Source: Phycisphaerae bacterium
Lineage (GTDB): Bacteria > Planctomycetota > Phycisphaerae > Sedimentisphaerales > Anaerobacaceae
Assembly (NCBI GenBank): GCA_028714255.1
Contig: JAQTMR010000003.1
Span: forward strand, 62,001 to 126,000
DNA: 64,000 nt
Reading direction: 5' to 3'
Below, piece by piece: positions 15,846 to 30,362 of the stretch. Position 1 is the first letter of the stretch. Every line of letters starts with the position of its first letter. The position numbers and the translations under genes were made by a program. A model generated the notes under the pieces. It saw only the letters and a program-made list of their open reading frames with translations. It was not told where the DNA came from and ran no database searches.

Positions 15846-16337
15846 TTATTTCCAACCTGTTATTTTCTGGCTCAAGACAGCAATATGACCAAGCTCTTCT
15901 TTTATGATGGCCTCGATTTTGTCTCTTCCTGCCCTGGATGGGACCAGCTCCTTCAGGCCGGTATAAAAAACCACTGAATTATTTTCAGCATCCACAGCTA
16001 TCTCGAGAATCTCTCCCAGACTCTCCTTGCCGGTCAGGTTTTCGGTCAGACTTTTCTTGCCTTCCCATCCGTGTCCCTTGGCCATTGTTTGCAGGTACAT
16101 TGCCGCCTCGTTATCCGGGTCGAAAACCGTCTCTTCCTTTTCCCCCTCGCTTAGTTGTTTTCTCATCTCCTGAAAAGTCGCCAGGTGCCTGTCTTCCATA
16201 CCGGCCAAATCGAAAAACATCTGCTTTGTTTCGTTGTCCGCAGCGAACTTCGCCGCCTGACGGTAAAACCTGGCGCCGTCTCTTTCGATTTTTTCTGCCA
16301 TCTCGAAGATTTCGTCGGCATTAAAGGTGATACTCAT
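15846..16337 (-). CDS. Rubrerythrin-like ferritin-fold protein without rubredoxin domain
   Basis: The protein has 163 residues and is a four-helix bundle. The diiron ligands are seen as Glu in EKIERDGARFYRQ (helix 1), ExxH in GMEDRHLATF (helix 2), Glu in VDAENNSVVFY (helix 3) and ExxH in KEELGHIAVL (helix 4). The C-terminal rubredoxin domain of full rubrerythrin is missing, so it would need the separate rubredoxin (15623-15787) or another donor for peroxide reduction. Its start overlaps the ferritin stop by 4 bp, so translation is coupled. It could also be an iron-binding erythrin. Confidence 0.9.
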   Translation of the reverse strand: MSITFNADEIFEMAEKIERDGARFYRQAAKFAADNETKQMFFDLAGMEDRHLATFQEMRKQLSEGEKEETVFDPDNEAAMYLQTMAKGHGWEGKKSLTENLTGKESLGEILEIAVDAENNSVVFYTGLKELVPSRAGRDKIEAIIKEELGHIAVLSQKITGWK

Positions 16338-16855
16338 TTTTGTTCTCCTTGTGTTGCTGGTGGCGTAAAGACCCGCAGTCCCAATTCACGGTCGAGCATA
16401 AACATCCCGCCGGGCGCGTTTCCCATCATTTTCATCTGCTTAACTATTTTATCCGCGGAAGATTCCTCTTCTACCTGTTCGTTGACAAACCACTGCAGAA
16501 AAGTATTGGTTGCGTGGTCCTTTTCCTTGATGGCCAGGCTTACGAGGCCGTGAATCAGACCCGTAACTTTTTGTTCGTGTTTGTATGTGGCTTCGAAAAC
16601 AGCCAACGGCGTCTTCCACTCCGTCTCGGGAGCGGCGATGGATTTCAATATAATTCTGCCCCCGCGCGCATCCACGAAATCATAAATCTTCATCGCGTGC
16701 ACCATCTCTTCCTGCACCTGAACCCTCATCCAATTGGCAAAGCCGCTCAAATCGAGTGACCTGAAATACGACTCCATCGACAAATACAGATAAGCCGAAT
16801 ACATCTCGGCGTTAATCTGCTCGTTCAGCGCCTTTTCCATGCTTTTGCTTATCAT
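16334..16855 (-). CDS. ftn: Ferritin
   Basis: The protein has 173 residues, the usual length for bacterial non-haem ferritin. Ferroxidase residues are in EQINAEMYSAYLYLSME (Glu17-type), EEMVHAMKIYDFVDARGG (ExxH), FEATYKHEQKVTGLI and FVNEQVEEESSADKIV. The fold assembles into a 24-subunit shell that stores iron and removes Fe(II) that would feed Fenton chemistry. It sits between superoxide reductase (58 bp upstream) and the rubrerythrin-like gene, which it overlaps. The C-terminal FTPPATQGEQK tail is short and variable. Confidence 0.95.
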   Translation of the reverse strand: MISKSMEKALNEQINAEMYSAYLYLSMESYFRSLDLSGFANWMRVQVQEEMVHAMKIYDFVDARGGRIILKSIAAPETEWKTPLAVFEATYKHEQKVTGLIHGLVSLAIKEKDHATNTFLQWFVNEQVEEESSADKIVKQMKMMGNAPGGMFMLDRELGLRVFTPPATQGEQK

Positions 16856-16913
16856 TTGTTAAGACCTCCACAATCCGTGAACATTGCAATACTTTATCGA
16901 AGCGTTGACTGCA

Positions 16914-17318
16914 TTATTCAATTAAGGAACGAGATCGTGGATAAACTCCTTTCCACAGACCATGAACATTGCAATGTTCACGAGCATCGATTTTTTTTGC
17001 TTTGATATTAAAAACAGCTTCAGGTGCATCGCCAGGCTTTAAGAATTGTCGATACGCCTTGCCGTCGGCGAGCAGTTCTATCCACTCGATATAATGTTTC
17101 TCTTCCATAGGATGAGCAACGCTGCCAATTTTTACTTTAATACCACCGTCAACTTCTTGGATTACGGGTACATGCTTTTCATTGCCCTGGTCAGCGGTTT
17201 TTTCAGCAAGATTTTCCATCGGCTGCCCGCAACAGACCAGTTCGCCGGCACCGCCGTGAAGCACTTCAACGATATTGCCGCAGATATTACATTTATAAAT
17301 CTCAAGTTTCTTTGCCAT
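16914..17318 (-). CDS. dfx: Desulfoferrodoxin-type superoxide reductase
   Basis: The protein has 134 residues with both domains. The N-terminal desulforedoxin domain has CNICG and LVCCGQPM (rubredoxin-like iron). The C-terminal SOR domain has the His ligands in [21 protein letters not shown] and [13 protein letters not shown], together with the axial Cys of the last motif. It reduces superoxide to hydrogen peroxide without making oxygen, using rubredoxin. The rubrerythrin and thiol peroxidase genes in the same operon remove the peroxide. It is 26 bp after the flavodiiron gene. Confidence 0.97.
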
Positions 17319-17344
17319 AAATTTGCCCTTTATGTAAATTGTTA

Positions 17345-18523
17345 TTATGCGATTCCGAGTTCCTTGTGTTTGGCGAGAATTTTGTCTGCCAAATTATCCA
17401 GGGCCGTGAAGTCCTCGTCCTTAGGATGGCCCTTTGCTATTACCGGCTCAATGATTTCTACTTTGAGGTTGCCAATTAATCCCGCGATTTGCTCGACCAT
17501 TTTGCCGCCCCAGCCGAATGAACCGATAACCGAGGCAAATTTGGTTTTCGGCCTTAGGGCATTTGCCAAAATCGCTGCGTATGCGACCTTCGGGTGCGCC
17601 GCCGTCAGAACCATCGGAGAGCCAAGCACAATCGTCGCAGCATCGACCAGCGACATCGCCAGCTTGCCAATATCAGTTACGGTAAGGTTGAACTGCTTAA
17701 CTGTAATGCCCCTTTCAATCAGGGCATCCACAAAATGCTCGACCATTTTTCTCGTGCTGTCGTGCATCGATATATAAGGCAGCACCACTTCGTTTTTCAC
17801 ATTGTCGCTTACCCAGTCTTTATAAGCATCGATAATAAATTTAGGCTTGTCGTAGATGGGGCCGTGACTCGAAGCGATTATATCTATTTCAAGGCCCTTT
17901 ATTTTTTCGAGGTTGCCTTTTATAGCAGTCCTGAAGGGCATCATTATCTCGGCGTAGTAACGCTTGGCAGACTCATATACAATCGCTTCATCCTCGACGA
18001 ACAAACTGCTCGTCGCCAGATGTGAGCCGAAGAAATCACACGGGAAAAGTATCTTGTCTTCTTTGAGATAAGTCCCCATCGTTTCGGGCCAGTGCACCCA
18101 GGGAATATAAATAAACTGCAAAGTCTTGTCGCCCAGTGAAAGCGTCTCGCCGTCACTAACGGCAATAAACTTATCGTCGTCGATTCCGAGCAAATCGACG
18201 AGCATACCTTTGCACTTCGGATTCGTAACCACCTTGGCTTCGGGATAAAGCATTAATATATCGCCTATGCCGCCGGAGTGGTCCTGCTCAGCGTGGTGGG
18301 CAACGATGTAATCTATTTTGTCGGTCCCTGCTTTTACGAGATTATCTATCAACACGCTTATCTTGGTCGGGTCAACCGTATCCAAAAGGGCGGTTTTTTC
18401 GCTGCCCTTTATCAGATATGCGTTATAGCTCGTCCCGTCCGGCAGGGGAATCAACTCATCGAACAGCCTTCTGTCCCAGTCAATTGCCCCAACTGCGTAA
18501 ACATTTGGTCTTAGCTGCGTCAT
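17345..18523 (-). CDS. fprA: Flavodiiron protein (rubredoxin:oxygen / NO oxidoreductase)
   Basis: The protein has 392 residues, the size of class A flavodiiron enzymes. The beta-lactamase-like domain (1-250) holds the diiron motif HxExDH (His77, Glu79, Asp81, His82 in [10 protein letters not shown]) and further His in WVHWPETM and [10 protein letters not shown]. The flavodoxin domain (250-392) binds [21 protein letters not shown] is close to the usual SMWxxT phosphate loop and [13 protein letters not shown] is its second loop. It reduces O2 to water or NO to N2O with electrons from rubredoxin. It overlaps the thiol peroxidase gene by 4 bp. Confidence 0.97.
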
Positions 18524-19134
18524 TTTTTCAATCCCTTTACTGCCTCTAAAGCAGCATTGTAATCAGGTTCAGTAGCTATTTCATTTACTATTTGTATATA
18601 CCTGATGACCCCGTCTTTGTTCAGAACGAACACCGCCCTTGCCAGCAGCCGAAGCTCTTTTATCAAAACTCCATACGCATTGCCGAAAGATGCGTCACGA
18701 TAATCCGAGAGGGTTCGAACATTCTTTGCGCCCGCGGCCCCGCACCATCGTTTCTGCGCAAAAGGCAGGTCCATACTAATCGCCAGCACCACGACGTCAC
18801 TGCCGAGCTTGCCCGCCTCTTCGTTGAACCTGCGAGTCTCGATATCACAAACGGCCGTGTCGAGCGACGGCACAGAAGTTATTATGCACACCTTGCCCTT
18901 AAAAGACGACAGCTTCACTGCCGACAGGTCGTTGGCAACAACCTCGAAATCCGGCGCCGCGTCACCAACCTTAAGCTCCTTACCCACCAGGGTCAGGGGC
19001 TTGCCTTTCATTGTTACGGTTCGTTTTTGTCCTTCCATAGAGTCCTCCTTGCAGCCCGTAAGCAGCATTGCTGTTACGATAGCATATAAACAGCCCGCAG
19101 TAACTGATAATCCTGCATTCGTCCGCATTGACAT
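18520..19134 (-). CDS. tpx: Thiol peroxidase, with possible lipoprotein form
   Basis: The Tpx domain is clear: VPSLDTAVCDIETRRFN holds the peroxidatic Cys and FAQKRWCGAAG the resolving Cys. From the ATG at 19134 the chain has 204 residues and begins with a convincing lipoprotein signal (hydrophobic segment, then MLLTGC, Cys28). A second in-frame ATG at 19038 (residue 33) would give a normal cytosolic Tpx of 172 residues, and it has AAGGAGG at 5-nt spacing, while the ATG at 19134 has no good site. The SD lies in the codons just after the lipobox. I list the longer frame; both forms could be made. Its stop overlaps the fprA start by 4 bp. Confidence 0.9.
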   Translation of the reverse strand: MSMRTNAGLSVTAGCLYAIVTAMLLTGCKEDSMEGQKRTVTMKGKPLTLVGKELKVGDAAPDFEVVANDLSAVKLSSFKGKVCIITSVPSLDTAVCDIETRRFNEEAGKLGSDVVVLAISMDLPFAQKRWCGAAGAKNVRTLSDYRDASFGNAYGVLIKELRLLARAVFVLNKDGVIRYIQIVNEIATEPDYNAALEAVKGLKK

Positions 19135-19164
19135 ATATCGCTTTTACTAAAAAACTGATACAGC

Positions 19165-19737
19165 TTAATAGTTGACCGCTTCCAGCTCAAAATGCGCCTG
19201 CGGATGCGCACACGAAGGACAAACATCCGGAGGTTCCGTCCCCTCGTGCACATAGCCGCAGTTCCTGCAAACCCATCGCATCGGCTTTTCGCGTTTGAAG
19301 ACGCGTCCTTCTTTTATGTTTTTCGCAAGGGCGATGTATCTATCCTCATGGCGTTTTTCAGCGATTGCTATTTTTCTGAAAACAGCCGCGATTTCTCCGA
19401 AGCCCTCTTCTTCCGCCGTTTTGGCAAACCCCGGATACATCTGCGTATTCTCATAATGCTCACCTGCCGCCGCCGCTTTCAAATTCTCAATCGTCGTCCC
19501 GATAACGCCCGCAGGGAACGCCGCGGTAATTTCCACCTCGCCGCCCTGTAGAAACTTGAACTCGCGCTTGGCGTGCTCTTTTTCCTGACCGGCGGTCTCT
19601 TCGAAAATCGCGGCTATCTGCTCATAGCCCTCTTTTTTGGCCTTGCTGGCGAAATACGTATAACGGTTCCTCGCCTGGGACTCGCCCGAAAAGGCGGTTA
19701 ATAGATTCTTTTCTGTCTGGCTTCCTTTAAGCTCCAT
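19165..19737 (-). CDS. rbr: Rubrerythrin
   Basis: The protein has 190 residues. The N-terminal ferritin-like diiron domain (1-145) has the ExxH helices [34 protein letters not shown], and [12 protein letters not shown]; the C-terminal rubredoxin domain is [30 protein letters not shown]. It reduces hydrogen peroxide to water using reduced rubredoxin, in the cytosol. It is the first gene of the operon of oxygen-defence genes that runs down to 13148, about 270 nt after the promoter at 20008-20036. Confidence 0.97.
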
Positions 19738-24448: not shown

Positions 24449-26146
24449 TCACTCATTAAATATATTATCGGCTTTTTGCTGCCGTGACAATACCTCAGTG
24501 GAAAGCTGCCGGCGAACCTTCCGGCAGTTCAAAACGCCGGCGAATTTATCCTGCTGCTCGGAGGTGACAACCGGCAGATATTCGATATCCAACTGTTTTG
24601 CCTTCTCGAATGCCTCCGACAAAGGCGTCTCCGGCGTCACCCTGCCGAGAACAGATTCCATAATATCAAGCGCAACAAGCCAATCGTTCAGTTGCTGCGT
24701 CGCAAAACTATTTCTAACACCATCCAAAGTTATGATGCCGATAAGATTCTGCTGATTATCAATAACGGGATAATAAAAATCGTAGGTATTTCCGACCGTG
24801 TTAACTACCCGGCTTAAAGAGTCGCCCGCCGCGATAGTCAGTACCGTTGTATTCATCACATCGGAGACGCGGTAAGACTCGATAAGGTCCTCTTCGGTGA
24901 TGTTCAGTCCTACTTCGCCGGCCTTTTTAACACCGATTTTAACGCAGGGCGGGCCTATAATCTGAACTAAAAATGTAGTCGAGGCGATAATCAGAATAAT
25001 CGCTTCGCCAAACTCGCCGCCGAAACGCTCACTTGCGATAATCGACAACCCTATGGCAACGCCCGCCTGGCTGAATAAGCACATACCCAGGTACTTCCGC
25101 ACCGTCTCCGGACTGTGCGAGATATACGCACCAAACCAGCTTCCGCTCATTTTTCCTATGGTTCTGCCCAGAACGTATGTCACCGCCAGGGCTATCATCC
25201 AAAACGGCACATTGCTGAACTGCAATCTGGCCCCTACGAGAACGAAAAACAAAACATAAACAGGAGGAGAGAATTTCTCAATGAGTTTAAATATTGGCTG
25301 GCTTCTTCTCGGCCGAAGATTAACCAATGTCGCGCCAAAGACCATCGCAGCCAAAATGGGTTCCACTTTCAAAATTACCGACAAACCCATAACAGACAGT
25401 ACTACCGCTATGCTCATTGACAGCACCCTGGCCGACTCAACGATATATCTGAGCAAAAATATAATAAGCAAACCGGCTGCCACACCCAAAGCTATTCCTC
25501 CGAAAATCTCCCACAGAGGAAAGATTATACTCTGAACAAAATTACATTTGCCGCCTTCCAGCAATCCCCCGGCAATGCTGCTCGCAAAACCATAAAGCAA
25601 TAATGCGAGGCCGTCATCAAGCGCGACAATGGCTAAAATAGTTCTGGTAAGAATACCTCTGGTTTTGTATTCCCAGAGGACGTCAACGGTCGCCGCCGGC
25701 GCCGTAGCGGACGAAATCGCGCCGAGAACGATTCCCATTGCAAGCGACGCACGCAAGTTGTGTGTAAGAAACATTCCAACCAGAAATGTCAATACGGATA
25801 CAATGAAAAAAGCGAAAAGACCTTCCGCAAGAAGAATCGTAATAAATTGTTTGCCGTATTTTTTGAAGACATCGTATTTCAGCTCCCCGCCTATCATAAA
25901 ACCAATTATCCCAAGAGCAAACATATTAAACGGCAGCAGAGAGCTGATTAAATCCGCTCTTATCAGGTTAAGCACCGAACCGCCTGCTATAATCCCCGCA
26001 ATAACGTAACCAACAACCTGCGGGATGTGCAGCTTCTGGGATATACGGCCCACAATAGTACCGCCGAAAATTGCGACCCCAAGGAGAAATAAAAAGTCAA
26101 GGTAGCCGGTGGATTCAACTGCCAAAATTGTTGGTGGGTTATACAT
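24449..26146 (-). CDS. CPA2-type cation:proton antiporter with C-terminal CBS domains
   Basis: The protein has 565 residues. A Na+/H+ exchanger domain (residues 15-395) has about 12 membrane spans, beginning FLFLLGVAIFGGTIVGRI. LGAISSATAPAATVDVLWEY and AIVALDDGLALLLYGF match the discontinuous helix and ion-site Asp of CPA antiporters. Residues 425-545 form two CBS motifs (VSDVMNTTVLTIAAGDSLSRVVNT; LGRVTPETPLSEAFEKAKQ), which usually bind adenine nucleotides and regulate transport. A paralogue of similar length lies directly upstream (26185-27861). The ion is not decided by the sequence. Confidence 0.9.
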   Translation of the reverse strand: MYNPPTILAVESTGYLDFLFLLGVAIFGGTIVGRISQKLHIPQVVGYVIAGIIAGGSVLNLIRADLISSLLPFNMFALGIIGFMIGGELKYDVFKKYGKQFITILLAEGLFAFFIVSVLTFLVGMFLTHNLRASLAMGIVLGAISSATAPAATVDVLWEYKTRGILTRTILAIVALDDGLALLLYGFASSIAGGLLEGGKCNFVQSIIFPLWEIFGGIALGVAAGLLIIFLLRYIVESARVLSMSIAVVLSVMGLSVILKVEPILAAMVFGATLVNLRPRRSQPIFKLIEKFSPPVYVLFFVLVGARLQFSNVPFWMIALAVTYVLGRTIGKMSGSWFGAYISHSPETVRKYLGMCLFSQAGVAIGLSIIASERFGGEFGEAIILIIASTTFLVQIIGPPCVKIGVKKAGEVGLNITEEDLIESYRVSDVMNTTVLTIAAGDSLSRVVNTVGNTYDFYYPVIDNQQNLIGIITLDGVRNSFATQQLNDWLVALDIMESVLGRVTPETPLSEAFEKAKQLDIEYLPVVTSEQQDKFAGVLNCRKVRRQLSTEVLSRQQKADNIFNE

Positions 26147-26184
26147 TAGTGAAACTGAAATTATATAAAAAGTTTCTAATAAGG

Positions 26185-27861
26185 TTACACTGCTTTATGG
26201 ATATACATACTATCCGCTTCCCGCTGCTTAGACAGAACCTCTCCTTCGAGCTGACGGTGCATCGCTTGAGAATTCAGAACGCCGGCATATTCTTTGCCCT
26301 GCCGAGAGGCAACAACCGGAACATATTCTATATTACCTCGCTCCATCAGTTCAACAGCCTGAGACAACACCGTATCAGGCGTTACCGTATCGACAACCGA
26401 TTCAGCAATATCGAGCGCTACCAGCCAATCACTCATCTCTCCCGCCACAAAGATATTCCTGATGCCTTCGAGTGTAATGACACCTATTATCTCCTTGTGG
26501 TCATCGACCACACAGTAACACGGATGAGCGGTGCTGCTGATGATTTTTAAAACATCGTTCAAAGAATCGCCGGCTGCGATAACAGGCACGTCTCTTTCCA
26601 TTACATTGCTGACATTGTAGGTTTTGATAAGGTCTTCTTCCGTAACATTAAGGCCCAATTCCCCGGCTTTGCCGGCGCCGTATTTAACGCCTATCGGCCC
26701 AACCAGCTGAAGTATAAATGCTCCAATAATTACGACCAGCAGCATCAATCCGCTTATATCATTCGAAAACCTGTGGCTTGCGACTATCAGCAGCGCCACT
26801 GCTATACCACCCTGTGGGTACAGGCAAAATCCGAGATAATTTCTTACTGTTTTTACCGTGTTCGAGCAAACTCCGCCCACATACGCCCCTAAAGTTTTAC
26901 CGACAATGCTGCCAATAACATAAGCAGCCACTAAAACCCAAATTACGATATTAACGTGAGCGAAATTGACCCTTGCCCCGACGAGCACGAAGAAGAGTAT
27001 ATATATCGGAGCGAAGAACTTGTGCAGTACTTTCAAAGCCGACTGAGCCAATTTGGGCCTAAGATTGACCAGAGTAGCACCCAGAGCCATAGCAGCAAGA
27101 ATGACATCCATTTTTAGATAAATAGCCGCACCCAAAACTATCAGGACCGTACTTAGTACGAAAGCCAGCATCCTGTCCGGGTCAGCAATTCGCTTTAACA
27201 GCCAGCTAAGGCCAATTCCGGCCATTGCTCCCAGGAATAAAGACCCGAAAATCTCGTAAAGCGTTTTGGCAAAGGTGACTAATAATCCTGCTTCCTGATG
27301 TCCGGTTATTATCCCGACTACAGAAATGCTGATGGCATAGAGGGTAAGAGCCAGAGCATCATCGAGAGTAACAATAGCGGTGAGCATAGCTGTTAACGGC
27401 CCCCTCGCTTTATATTCCCAGAGAACAGCGATAGTGGAAGCAGGGTCGGTAGCTGAGCATATCGCTGCGAACACTACGCCGACGGCTAAAGCTGTCTGCC
27501 AATCAGAAAAGTGCCACATGGCAAGAAAAGTGAGAGACCCTACCAGTAGAAAAGCCGTGGCTCCCTCAAAAAGCAATACGATTGGGACCTGTTTTCCAAA
27601 TTTTACAAAGATTTCCCGCTTCAGCTCGGCGCCGACGAGGAATCCGATAACGCCGAGGGCAAACAAATTAATCGGGTCAAAAATTTGAATTGCCTCGTAT
27701 GGTATGATTCTCAAAACAGGCCCAATAACAAGCCCTATCACGACACATCCAACAACTTGAGGGATTCTAAAGCGATGGAAAATCTTGGCGCTGACCGCAC
27801 CTGCGAATATTGCTATCCCGATGATAAAAAGAATGTTCAGATTCTCGCTTTGCGTTTCCAT
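26185..27861 (-). CDS. Second CPA2-type antiporter with CBS domains
   Basis: The protein has 558 residues from the ATG at 27861 (METQSENLNILFIIG), the start that fits the paralogue at 24449-26146; a frame from 27957 would add 32 unlikely residues. Antiporter domain residues are VFAAICSATDPASTIAVLWEY and AIVTLDDALALTLYAI; the CBS pair is VSNVMERDVPVIAAGDSLNDVLK and VDTVTPDTVLSQAVELMERG. The two genes are tandem paralogues 38 bp apart. Divergent from an EIIA-CBS gene (28112) across about 250 bp that should hold both promoters. Confidence 0.9.
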   Translation of the reverse strand: METQSENLNILFIIGIAIFAGAVSAKIFHRFRIPQVVGCVVIGLVIGPVLRIIPYEAIQIFDPINLFALGVIGFLVGAELKREIFVKFGKQVPIVLLFEGATAFLLVGSLTFLAMWHFSDWQTALAVGVVFAAICSATDPASTIAVLWEYKARGPLTAMLTAIVTLDDALALTLYAISISVVGIITGHQEAGLLVTFAKTLYEIFGSLFLGAMAGIGLSWLLKRIADPDRMLAFVLSTVLIVLGAAIYLKMDVILAAMALGATLVNLRPKLAQSALKVLHKFFAPIYILFFVLVGARVNFAHVNIVIWVLVAAYVIGSIVGKTLGAYVGGVCSNTVKTVRNYLGFCLYPQGGIAVALLIVASHRFSNDISGLMLLVVIIGAFILQLVGPIGVKYGAGKAGELGLNVTEEDLIKTYNVSNVMERDVPVIAAGDSLNDVLKIISSTAHPCYCVVDDHKEIIGVITLEGIRNIFVAGEMSDWLVALDIAESVVDTVTPDTVLSQAVELMERGNIEYVPVVASRQGKEYAGVLNSQAMHRQLEGEVLSKQREADSMYIHKAV

Positions 27862-28111
27862 AATCCTAAATACTTTTGTTCTGGAAATAACCGCAATTTC
27901 ACCGATTAAAGAGGGAAACTGCCATATTCCAGTCCAATTTGACAATTGTACATGCATAGGAATAAAAGAGAATATTATACCGCTATTATTGACAAAGCGG
28001 TAGTAAAGAAAGTAAAATAATCTCCTTCGATGACTTTTGGGCGCATTTGCATCGCATGCCCTGATCGCCCTATTGAATCACGAAAAATCCAGCCGGTCGA
28101 AAAGTGGAATT

Positions 28112-29035
28112 ATGATTGAAATAGGAAAATATATCAGGCCGGAGCTTATAATACCCGAGCTCAAATGTAAGACAAAGCAGGATGCTATCGAGCAGCTGGT
28201 GACAAGGATGTTTTACGCACATAACCCAATCGCCTTTGGCGGATTAAATCTCCAACAGGTTCTCGATGAGGTCATTAAGCGCGAGAACATCCATACCACC
28301 GGCCTGGGCAATGGCCTGGCATACCCGCACGCCAGAATCGAACAGTGCAGCGACCTTGTTTTAGCAATAGGTATTTGCAAAGACGGTGTCGATTTCAACA
28401 GCCTCGATGGGCAGCTTTGCAACATTATCTGCCTTATGATTTCTCCCGCGCGACAGCCATATATCATCCTGCAAACAATGGCAGCCATGTCGAGATTCTT
28501 TATCAATCCCGACAATGCGGAGAAACTAAAGACCGAATCCTCGCCTCAGCGAATCGCAGAAATGCTGCGAACATCCGCCCCGGCCACAGGCAAAACAGTC
28601 CTGGCTCGCGACATTATGCAGCCGGTAAATAAGCTTGTTCGCCTCGATACCTCGATAGAGGAAACCACACGGATTATGCACCTTAATCACCTTGATGTGC
28701 TGCCCGTTGTGGACAGCGAAAACCGTTTTTGCGGCGAAATATCCTGTCTGAAGATTTTTACCTACGGCATCCCCGATTTCTTCAGCCAGCTCCAGACAGT
28801 TTCATTCGTCAAAAACCTCGACCCCTTCGAAAAATACTTCAAATTCAGAAAAGACCTGAAAGTCGGAGACCTTTACGAACCGGGCAGCAGCCCTGTCCAC
28901 AAGGATACGACTCTGGTCGAGGTGATATTTCAGATGACAACAAAAAACAAACCTGAACTTTATGTTCTCGATGACAACAAACTAATCGGCACTATCGACC
29001 GGTTCTCGATTATAGACAGAGTCCTTTTTTTCTAA
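28112..29035 (+). CDS. PTS EIIA (PtsN-type) domain fused to CBS domains
   Basis: The protein has 307 residues from the ATG at 28112 (MIEIGKYIRPELIIPEL). The EIIA fructose/nitrogen-type domain covers about 1-150, with the phosphorylated His in GLAYPHARIEQ. Two CBS motifs follow: ARDIMQPVNKLVRLDTSIEETTRI (175-225) and KVGDLYEPGSSPVHKDTTLVEV (250-305). PtsN-type proteins control K+ transport and other processes by contact in other bacteria. No sugar EIIB/EIIC is nearby. With the antiporters upstream and the permease 16 bp downstream, it is probably a regulatory subunit of ion transport. The fusion is unusual but the domain calls are good. Confidence 0.85.
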   Translation: MIEIGKYIRPELIIPELKCKTKQDAIEQLVTRMFYAHNPIAFGGLNLQQVLDEVIKRENIHTTGLGNGLAYPHARIEQCSDLVLAIGICKDGVDFNSLDGQLCNIICLMISPARQPYIILQTMAAMSRFFINPDNAEKLKTESSPQRIAEMLRTSAPATGKTVLARDIMQPVNKLVRLDTSIEETTRIMHLNHLDVLPVVDSENRFCGEISCLKIFTYGIPDFFSQLQTVSFVKNLDPFEKYFKFRKDLKVGDLYEPGSSPVHKDTTLVEVIFQMTTKNKPELYVLDDNKLIGTIDRFSIIDRVLFF

Positions 29036-29051
29036 GCTGAAGTGGAGAAAA

Positions 29052-30362
29052 ATGTCCGCCATTATAAGTATAGCCATATTCGTAACCGCCTACCTCCTAA
29101 TCGCCAGCGATAAGGTGAACAAGACCATTGTAGCCGTTCTCGGCGCGTCTTTGATACTTCTGCTGCGGATAATCACTTTCGACCGAGCCGTAGCTGCCAT
29201 TGATTTGAACGTCATATTCCTGCTGGTGGGAATGATGACGTCGGTTTCGATTCTTGCGAAGACCGGCTTTTTCGAATGGGCCGCAATCAGCACCGCAAAA
29301 CTGGCAAAGGGAAAACCAATCGCCATAATGCTGCTGCTTCTGACCGTCACGGCGTTTTTCTCCGCATTTCTCGATAACGTTACCTGCATCGTGCTATTCG
29401 TGCCCGTTACGATATTGATTACACAGATACTCGAAATCTCGCCTGTCCCGTTCGTTATTCTCGAAGCCATCGCATCCAACATCGGCGGCACCGCAACTCT
29501 CATAGGCGACCCGCCCAACATAATTATCGGCTCGCAGGGCAATTTAAGCTTCAATGACTTCCTTGTAAATCTATCGCCCGCAATTTTGGTCACTATGGCT
29601 ATCTTTCTTGCAACGGTATATTTTCTGTACCGAAAACATCTGGTCGTCAGCGAAAGCATAAGAAGGAGAATAGACGAAGCAATTCCGAGACTTGCCATAA
29701 TCGACAAAAAGAACATGATTAAGTCGCTTATTGTTATGGCGATGATGATGCTCGGGTTCTTTCTTCATGCCGTAATAGGACTTGAGCCGGGCATAATTGC
29801 GCTTGCAGGCAGTATGGTAATGATGCTTGTCTGTAAAGCTGAAAGTAACGACTCGTTGATGAGAGTCGAATGGGCCGTAATTTTCTTCTTCATCGGCCTG
29901 TTCATAATGGTCGCCGCTCTCGAGGAAACCGGCGCCATAGACTGGATTGCTCATCATCTGCTTGCGGTGGCGGGCCATAACCTCTTTCTTATGTGTATCG
30001 TTGTCCTGTGGAGCAGCGCAATTCTGTCTGCCCTGCTGGATAATATCCCCTTCGTTATCGCAATGGTGCCGCTGCTGAAGCTTAGCTTCACCACCATAGC
30101 GCAGAATATGGGTATAGTTGACCCCATAGTCATCCAGCACTCCATAGCCGAGCCGTTATGGTGGTCGCTGGCGCTTGGCGTCTGCTTAGGCGGTAACGGA
30201 ACGCTAATCGGGGCCTCGGCAAATGTCGTCGCCGCACAAATATGCGACAAAAACAAATACCATATCTCCTTCTGGGAATTCACGAAAATAGGCTTTCCCC
30301 TGATGATTCAATCTGCGATTGTTTCGACAATTTACATCTGGCTGAGATTCTTCCGTCCGTAA
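29052..30362 (+). CDS. ArsB/NhaD-type ion permease
   Basis: The protein has 436 residues with about 11-12 membrane spans. LLVGMMTSVSILAKTGFFEW, DNVTCIVLFVPVTILI, and GGTATLIGDPPNIIIGSQGNLSF are the ion-transporter superfamily repeat; the second repeat is in LLDNIPFVIAMVPLL and GGNGTLIGASANVVAAQI. Both arsenite permeases (ArsB) and NhaD Na+/H+ antiporters have these motifs, and I cannot decide between them. No ars regulators or reductases are nearby, while two antiporters and an EIIA-CBS protein are, so Na+ or another ion is more likely. It follows EIIA-CBS by 16 bp. Confidence 0.88.
   Translation: MSAIISIAIFVTAYLLIASDKVNKTIVAVLGASLILLLRIITFDRAVAAIDLNVIFLLVGMMTSVSILAKTGFFEWAAISTAKLAKGKPIAIMLLLLTVTAFFSAFLDNVTCIVLFVPVTILITQILEISPVPFVILEAIASNIGGTATLIGDPPNIIIGSQGNLSFNDFLVNLSPAILVTMAIFLATVYFLYRKHLVVSESIRRRIDEAIPRLAIIDKKNMIKSLIVMAMMMLGFFLHAVIGLEPGIIALAGSMVMMLVCKAESNDSLMRVEWAVIFFFIGLFIMVAALEETGAIDWIAHHLLAVAGHNLFLMCIVVLWSSAILSALLDNIPFVIAMVPLLKLSFTTIAQNMGIVDPIVIQHSIAEPLWWSLALGVCLGGNGTLIGASANVVAAQICDKNKYHISFWEFTKIGFPLMIQSAIVSTIYIWLRFFRP

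Follow-up and report, generated by a model that had tools for sequence, protein, structure and literature searches.

What does an EIIA domain of the phosphoenolpyruvate (PEP)-dependent phosphotransferase system (PTS) regulate when it is encoded, fused to a pair of CBS domains, between two antiporter genes and a permease gene? The question is raised by positions 24,449 to 30,362 of the stretch studied here (the window: 64,000 nucleotides of contig JAQTMR010000003.1 from the 2.41 Mb, 39-contig, 98.9% complete genome of a Phycisphaerae bacterium). An earlier note described this region as an ion-transport cluster of four genes, and that arrangement is borne out: its coordinates are those of four open reading frames (ORFs), and the Pfam domains are as claimed, with two CBS stretches each in both antiporters and in the EIIA-CBS protein. 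Comparison with other genomes gives a robust result, i.e. that the conserved unit is smaller than the four-gene cluster and consists of EIIA-CBS with the permease directly downstream. On balance, we lean towards EIIA-CBS being a PTS output that would switch this partner permease according to its phosphorylation state.

Conserved pairing of EIIA-CBS with a CitMHS-type permease

The EIIA-CBS gene (28112..29035, forward strand, in an ORF that opens at 28037) encodes a 307-residue protein with an EIIA Ntr-like domain (PF00359) and a CBS pair (PF00571), and the gene for a 436-residue permease of the CitMHS/ion transporter (IT) superfamily (29052..30362, forward strand; PF03600, 4.4e-86) starts 16 bp past its stop codon. 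A pattern scan of genome contigs, using alignment A2 and motifs derived from the linker between the two CBS domains, gave 56 loci, of which six repeat contigs already in the set; their record titles name Phycisphaerae, Planctomycetota, Auribacterota, Omnitrophota, Lentisphaerae/Victivallales and Kiritimatiellota, together with Verrucomicrobia, Hydrogenedentota, Coatesbacteria and Deltaproteobacteria. With repeats dropped, the fragment locus L137 unscored and aligned coordinates used, a CitMHS gene in the same orientation is the next gene downstream in 51/54 scored gene calls; the three unpaired calls are two CBS-only proteins and one helix-turn-helix (HTH)-EIIA protein, and when these are set aside the permease follows 51/51 EIIA-CBS genes. 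Whole-protein searches place the permease directly downstream in 25/37 gene calls, or 25/36 once one CBS-only protein is removed; in this set L146 ends at a contig end, L072 is unscored, L149 repeats L082, and the loci of one search were hand-picked rather than random, from matches reaching the CBS part, most matches spanning EIIA alone. Pairwise distances between EIIA-CBS proteins correlate with those between their permeases (r 0.85 over 63 pairs, with 0/1000 permutations as high), a value that shared descent alone would also raise. Conserved linkage, whose absence the earlier note would have counted against its proposal, is hence seen for EIIA-CBS and the CitMHS permease, and does not extend to the CPA2 antiporters as the conserved partner.

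The permease, which the earlier note described as ArsB/NhaD-type, scores over the cut-offs of the general models of the superfamily (CitMHS PF03600, 289.5 bits against a cut-off of 31.9; ArsB PF02040, 60.9 bits against 22.2). It falls below the cut-offs of the narrower models, scoring 194.4 bits against MamN NF040989 (cut-off 500) and 90.7 bits against ArsB TIGR00935 (cut-off 415), and lying under those of the DASS models. Its solved relatives are VcINDY and ArsB, and a comparison within the IT superfamily (CitMHS, ArsB, MamN, INDY) found no permease family with a known PTS partner.

Other genes accompany the pair at some loci. In two Pontiellaceae loci (L100:10297-12797, L106:10302-12826) genes for a SulP-STAS transporter and an EIIA come after the pair, the EIIA of L106 carrying a zinc ribbon, and in an Omnitrophota locus (L084:5715-10566) it precedes complex-I-like subunits. 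A small CBS-only gene lies upstream of EIIA-CBS at L043:7778-8260, L044:9640-10125, L095:678-1058 and L115:5989-6396; this gene, Pfam-checked in L112 (= L044), L095, L115 and L106, is absent from the window.

The phosphotransferase relay and the EIIA-CBS protein

The genome contains one EI gene (a single PF05524 match, 1e-23, with all three EI Pfam domains present) and one HPr gene (a single PF00381 match, 6.6e-29), which are adjacent on contig C7 beside a free EIIA; the absence of both, named in the earlier note as a finding that would count against its proposal, is not observed. That note's statement that no PTS sugar transporter is present applies genome-wide to the two families searched, with 0 matches to PTS_EIIC PF02378 and 0 to PTS_IIB PF02302, other EIIC/EIIB families not having been searched, and a fructose- or mannitol-type sugar PTS is rejected within the same bounds. 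Since EI and HPr are present and neither family is matched, the genome is predicted to encode a phosphate relay that has no sugar permease among the families searched. EI and HPr, an EIIA with a conserved histidine and no match to PF02378 or PF02302 together make up the features of a regulatory, PTSNtr-like system. No HPr kinase was found in the genome, a weak absence in that the control for this family missed Bacillus subtilis.

Five EIIA_2 domains are encoded in the genome; those other than the ones of EIIA-CBS and of the free EIIA on contig C7 are found in a free 152-residue protein, in an HTH-EIIA protein and at the C-terminus of an amino-acid permease (L009:5580-7418, contig C6). On the same contig (L008:3339-7023), the HTH-EIIA gene immediately precedes genes for membrane subunits of a complex-I-like kind (Proton_antipo_M, NADHdh). 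Elsewhere in the phylum, EIIA is joined outright to antiporter-type proteins: eight Na_H_Exchanger-EIIA fusions were checked with Pfam, seven at the nine long-frame EIIA loci (L073-L077, L079 and L081, with L078 and L080 left out of the count) and the eighth in L087. This last fusion has two EIIA stretches, and an EIIA-CBS/permease pair lies about 0.36 kb upstream of it.

The putative active-site residue of EIIA-CBS, His73 (numbered from the start at 28112) in a PHAR motif, is invariant in three alignments of homologues (11/11, 30/30 and 36/36), and in the last of these, a full-length set gathered without motif selection, the surroundings of the active site are the best-conserved stretch. An AlphaFold2 model (predicted local distance difference test, pLDDT, 84.5; predicted template modelling score, pTM, 0.56) matches solved EIIA-Ntr structures with target-normalised template modelling (TM) scores of 0.85-0.90, and CBS-pair structures are also matched. 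The linker between the CBS domains (residues 219-243, GIPDFF...DPFEKYF, 28766..28840, forward strand) is conserved and modelled with low confidence, residues 221-240 having a pLDDT of about 50 in the monomer. Its conservation in alignment A3 (3.64 bits, 2.46 overall) is inflated, because the loci of that alignment were found with motifs from the same stretch; in the 36 sequences found without the linker motif it is moderately above average (2.46 bits, 2.14 overall). The proposal of a strongly conserved docking motif was dropped on these grounds, and the linker is best described as a possible docking element. The genome encodes a diadenylate cyclase domain, which makes cyclic di-AMP a possible ligand for the CBS pair of EIIA-CBS.

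The two antiporters and the rnpA slot

Both antiporter genes lie on the reverse strand, one at 24449..26146 (565 residues; PF00999 2.2e-29, PF00571 7.9e-14) and the other at 26185..27957, with a likely start near 27858 (557 residues; PF00999 1.4e-29, PF00571 1.5e-16), each encoding a Na_H_Exchanger domain (102.9 and 103.5 bits, cut-off 26.2) followed by a C-terminal CBS pair. The description of them as paralogues divergent to EIIA-CBS and the permease is confirmed by their 46% mutual identity and opposite strand; the first is 57% identical to the antiporter of a relative. The label CPA2 rests on the earlier note's call and on general resemblance, the first protein scoring 43.9 bits against the CPA2 subfamily model TIGR00932, under the cut-off of 238.3, and the second not being reported by it. 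Among solved structures, those closest to the second antiporter are of Na+/H+ antiporters of NhaP type (4cza, 1.6e-10). At the ion-binding pair of such antiporters, which is Asn-Asp in NhaP, both proteins have Asp-Asp (one assigned by alignment, the other read from the sequence). CBS domains can carry an adenosine-binding motif; the first CBS motifs of the antiporters are GIITLDG and GVITLEG, those of EIIA-CBS GEISCLK and GTIDRFS. Because the former look, by eye, closer to the adenosine-binding motif, nucleotide sensing appears likelier in the antiporters than in EIIA-CBS.

A CPA2-CBS gene is found near 12 of 67 distinct EIIA-CBS loci, always in the same orientation and at a distance of 1.4 to 1.9 kb, and no CPA2 match occurs beyond 1.9 kb in the 820 kb of sequence that these loci cover. 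Record titles and NCBI lineages assign eleven of these loci to Kiritimatiellota (the remaining one is titled Planctomycetota), in which the genes usually run HTH-EIIA or EIIA, CPA2-CBS, small CBS protein, EIIA-CBS and permease. The linkage recurs, therefore, but in few independent lineages.

Within the family of the source organism, rnpA was found in 22/24 other genomes. One to three CPA2 genes adjoin it in 13 of the 22, and seven have different genes there or none; of two genomes from the same genus, G392 has an EIIA-CBS/CitMHS pair beside rnpA (25% and 28% identical to the window proteins) and no CPA2 at 1e-60 anywhere in the genome, and in G393 the contig breaks off within the adjoining gene, leaving the C-terminal part of a pyrophosphatase of the H+-translocating type (L170:2294-3031). 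No EIIA-CBS or permease gene lies in the stretch examined in the 13 genomes with CPA2 at rnpA, several of whose contigs end inside the slot. Ten genomes have rnpA and tlpA in order on one contig; CPA2 lies between them in six of these and an EIIA-CBS/permease pair in one, the other three having neither. G407 also has the two genes on one contig, but with mlaD in between. In G400 and G405 an EIIA gene without CBS domains adjoins CPA2 by rnpA, and in two relatives (L160:2393-9649, L163:6711-10609) a 270-residue EIIA gene stands between CPA2-CBS and CBS-less CPA2 genes. Among the loci and genomes examined the divergent four-gene layout is met in this genome alone, so that linkage is conserved while the layout is not; a conserved divergent cassette is rejected, relatives having one to three CPA2-CBS genes by rnpA without the pair. 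A close form of the window EIIA-CBS occurs in 1/41 other relatives searched (G401, 54% identity), the next relatives being those of Auribacterota (52%) and Omnitrophota (46-47%). The simplest interpretation, though not a proven one, is that the pair was acquired horizontally and entered a slot occupied by CPA2.

The gene order around the slot in the window is mlaD, rnpA, CPA2, CPA2, EIIA-CBS, permease, tlpA, obg and coaX. The likely starts at 28112 (EIIA-CBS) and near 27858 (second antiporter) were placed where homologues begin, and the divergent intergenic region contains a sigma-70-like promoter match on the forward strand (27989..28018; TTGACA, 18 nt, TAAAAT) that agrees with the consensus at 11/12 positions, the top of 15 matches in 7 kb; as chance alone is expected to give 10.9 +/- 3.6 matches for the class as a whole, this match is treated as a lead only. 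Farther off, at 15846-19737, the window contains a run of genes resembling by eye oxygen-defence proteins, which we take to be of rubrerythrin, ferritin and flavodiiron type.

A candidate mechanism, its rivals and its relation to known systems

On the reading that we favour, PEP would charge EI, and phosphate would pass through HPr to His73 of the EIIA domain. EIIA-CBS would bind the cytoplasmic face of the downstream CitMHS/IT-superfamily permease, depending on its phosphorylation state, and switch transport, the unphosphorylated form most likely being inhibitory, such that the flux of an ion or organic anion would track PEP and the energy state. The CBS pair may dimerise EIIA-CBS or bring in a second signal, and the CPA2-CBS antiporters would be a unit of their own at the rnpA locus, retained by vertical descent and serving the same ion-homeostasis task, perhaps under nucleotide control of their own. 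This reading draws on the single EI and HPr genes, the invariant His73, the pairing of EIIA-CBS with the permease, the fusions of EIIA to transporters, and the precedents of YcgO and LacS described below. Several observations weigh against the permease as target. In 11/36 EIIA-CBS genes of the whole-protein set no CitMHS gene was found downstream; these include five genomes of a single genus, in which the two loci checked have an ABC-2 permease gene directly upstream of EIIA-CBS instead (L050:1-2866, where an ABC ATPase gene is also present, and L054:7238-9018). The 51/51 set represents one subfamily, chosen by linker motifs; the substrate is not fixed by family, the permease falling far short of the MamN (194/500) and ArsB cut-offs; and EIIA-CBS could act on another target. 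A broader proposal, which we hold more tentatively and regard as rather doubtful, is that the PTS has here been turned into a controller of ion homeostasis, running from PEP through EI and HPr to secondary transporters rather than to sugar uptake. Its outputs would include EIIA-CBS with the CitMHS permease, the EIIA-Na+/H+-exchanger-type fusions, the EIIA-amino-acid permease fusion and HTH-EIIA beside CPA2-CBS or complex-I-like pumps, with EIIA-CBS/permease cassettes and CPA2-CBS antiporters interchangeable at the same slot.

Three other explanations were considered. The model of the earlier note, in which EIIA-CBS chiefly regulates the two adjacent CPA2-CBS antiporters through CBS-CBS contacts, would account for the same-strand CPA2-CBS genes at 12 EIIA-CBS loci, for the other EIIA genes that adjoin CPA2-CBS in relatives (L160, L163, L180) and for the HTH-EIIA genes that immediately precede CPA2-CBS in Kiritimatiellota (confirmed with Pfam in L105 and L106). 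We nevertheless consider it unlikely, given the few independent events behind that linkage, the 55/67 EIIA-CBS loci with no CPA2 nearby and the 13 family genomes that keep CPA2 by rnpA with no pair in the stretches examined, several of them contig-cut. That EIIA-CBS is phosphorylation-dead or phosphorylation-independent, serving as a scaffold or nucleotide sensor with the CBS pair as its sole means of regulating the permease, seems distinctly unlikely: transporters are commonly regulated by CBS pairs, as a review indicates (PMC10710835), and the EIIA domain scores well under the cut-offs of the PtsN equivalog TIGR01419 (53.3 bits against 138.7) and of the fruA model (64.7 against 103.5), but the invariance of His73 in 36/36 homologues, within the most conserved stretch of the protein, and the retention of EI and HPr with no PF02378 or PF02302 match point the other way. 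That the neighbourhood reflects only a housekeeping grouping of transporter genes, none of which regulates another, is highly improbable; the rnpA-tlpA slot does hold unrelated genes in relatives (a carbohydrate esterase in G408, the H+-pyrophosphatase by rnpA in G393), but the pairing of EIIA-CBS and permease is found across several phyla by record title, and outright EIIA-transporter fusions exist.

The control of a permease by EIIA-CBS thus proposed is of interest in that it concerns a PTS relay for which no sugar permease was detected and which operon structure, or gene fusion in other cases, connects with transporters of ions or anions. Whether ion transport follows PEP state can therefore be tested directly on small proteins; named cultured strains, i.e. 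Victivallis vadensis and Pontiella sulfatireligans, carry such loci (L128, L130, L105). The suggestion in the earlier note that regulation of ion antiport by EIIA would be new was too strong. In Escherichia coli, PtsN (EIIANtr) binds the cytoplasmic region of the K+/H+ antiporter YcgO and inhibits it, binding only if unphosphorylated (PMC11808508). Regulation of antiport by the PTS has this precedent, and it is the EIIA-CBS and permease architecture that is new; no description of the fusion, or of its operon with a CitMHS permease, was found in the open-licence literature, and the pair may be undescribed so far. Control of K+ homeostasis by PtsN is known mostly from proteobacteria, and a recent review calls its purpose unclear (PMC13104625).

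The PtsN-YcgO system resembles the present one in having an EIIANtr-type protein, a relay with no sugar permease of its own and a monovalent cation/proton antiporter addressed through a cytoplasmic regulatory domain. It differs in that the E. coli EIIA is free and the antiporter is a CPA1 protein with RCK/CorC-like domains (PMC11808508), whereas the EIIA of the window has a CBS pair fused to it and is encoded in an operon with a CitMHS permease, next to CPA2 antiporters bearing CBS pairs. LacS of streptococci and lactobacilli is likewise a secondary transporter under an EIIA-type domain that HPr can phosphorylate, and the 2023 review cited above presents it as the sole case of bacterial transporter regulation by direct phosphorylation (PMC10710835). 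In LacS, however, an EIIA-Glc-like domain is fused to a sugar transporter, whereas the Ntr/fructose-type EIIA of the window is separate from its permease, fused versions (Na_H_Exchanger, amino-acid permease) being encoded by other members of the phylum and by this genome. OpuA/OpuC, MgtE and MpfA also have CBS pairs on, or working with, a transporter (PMC10710835); in the protein described here the CBS pair is instead joined to a PTS EIIA domain.

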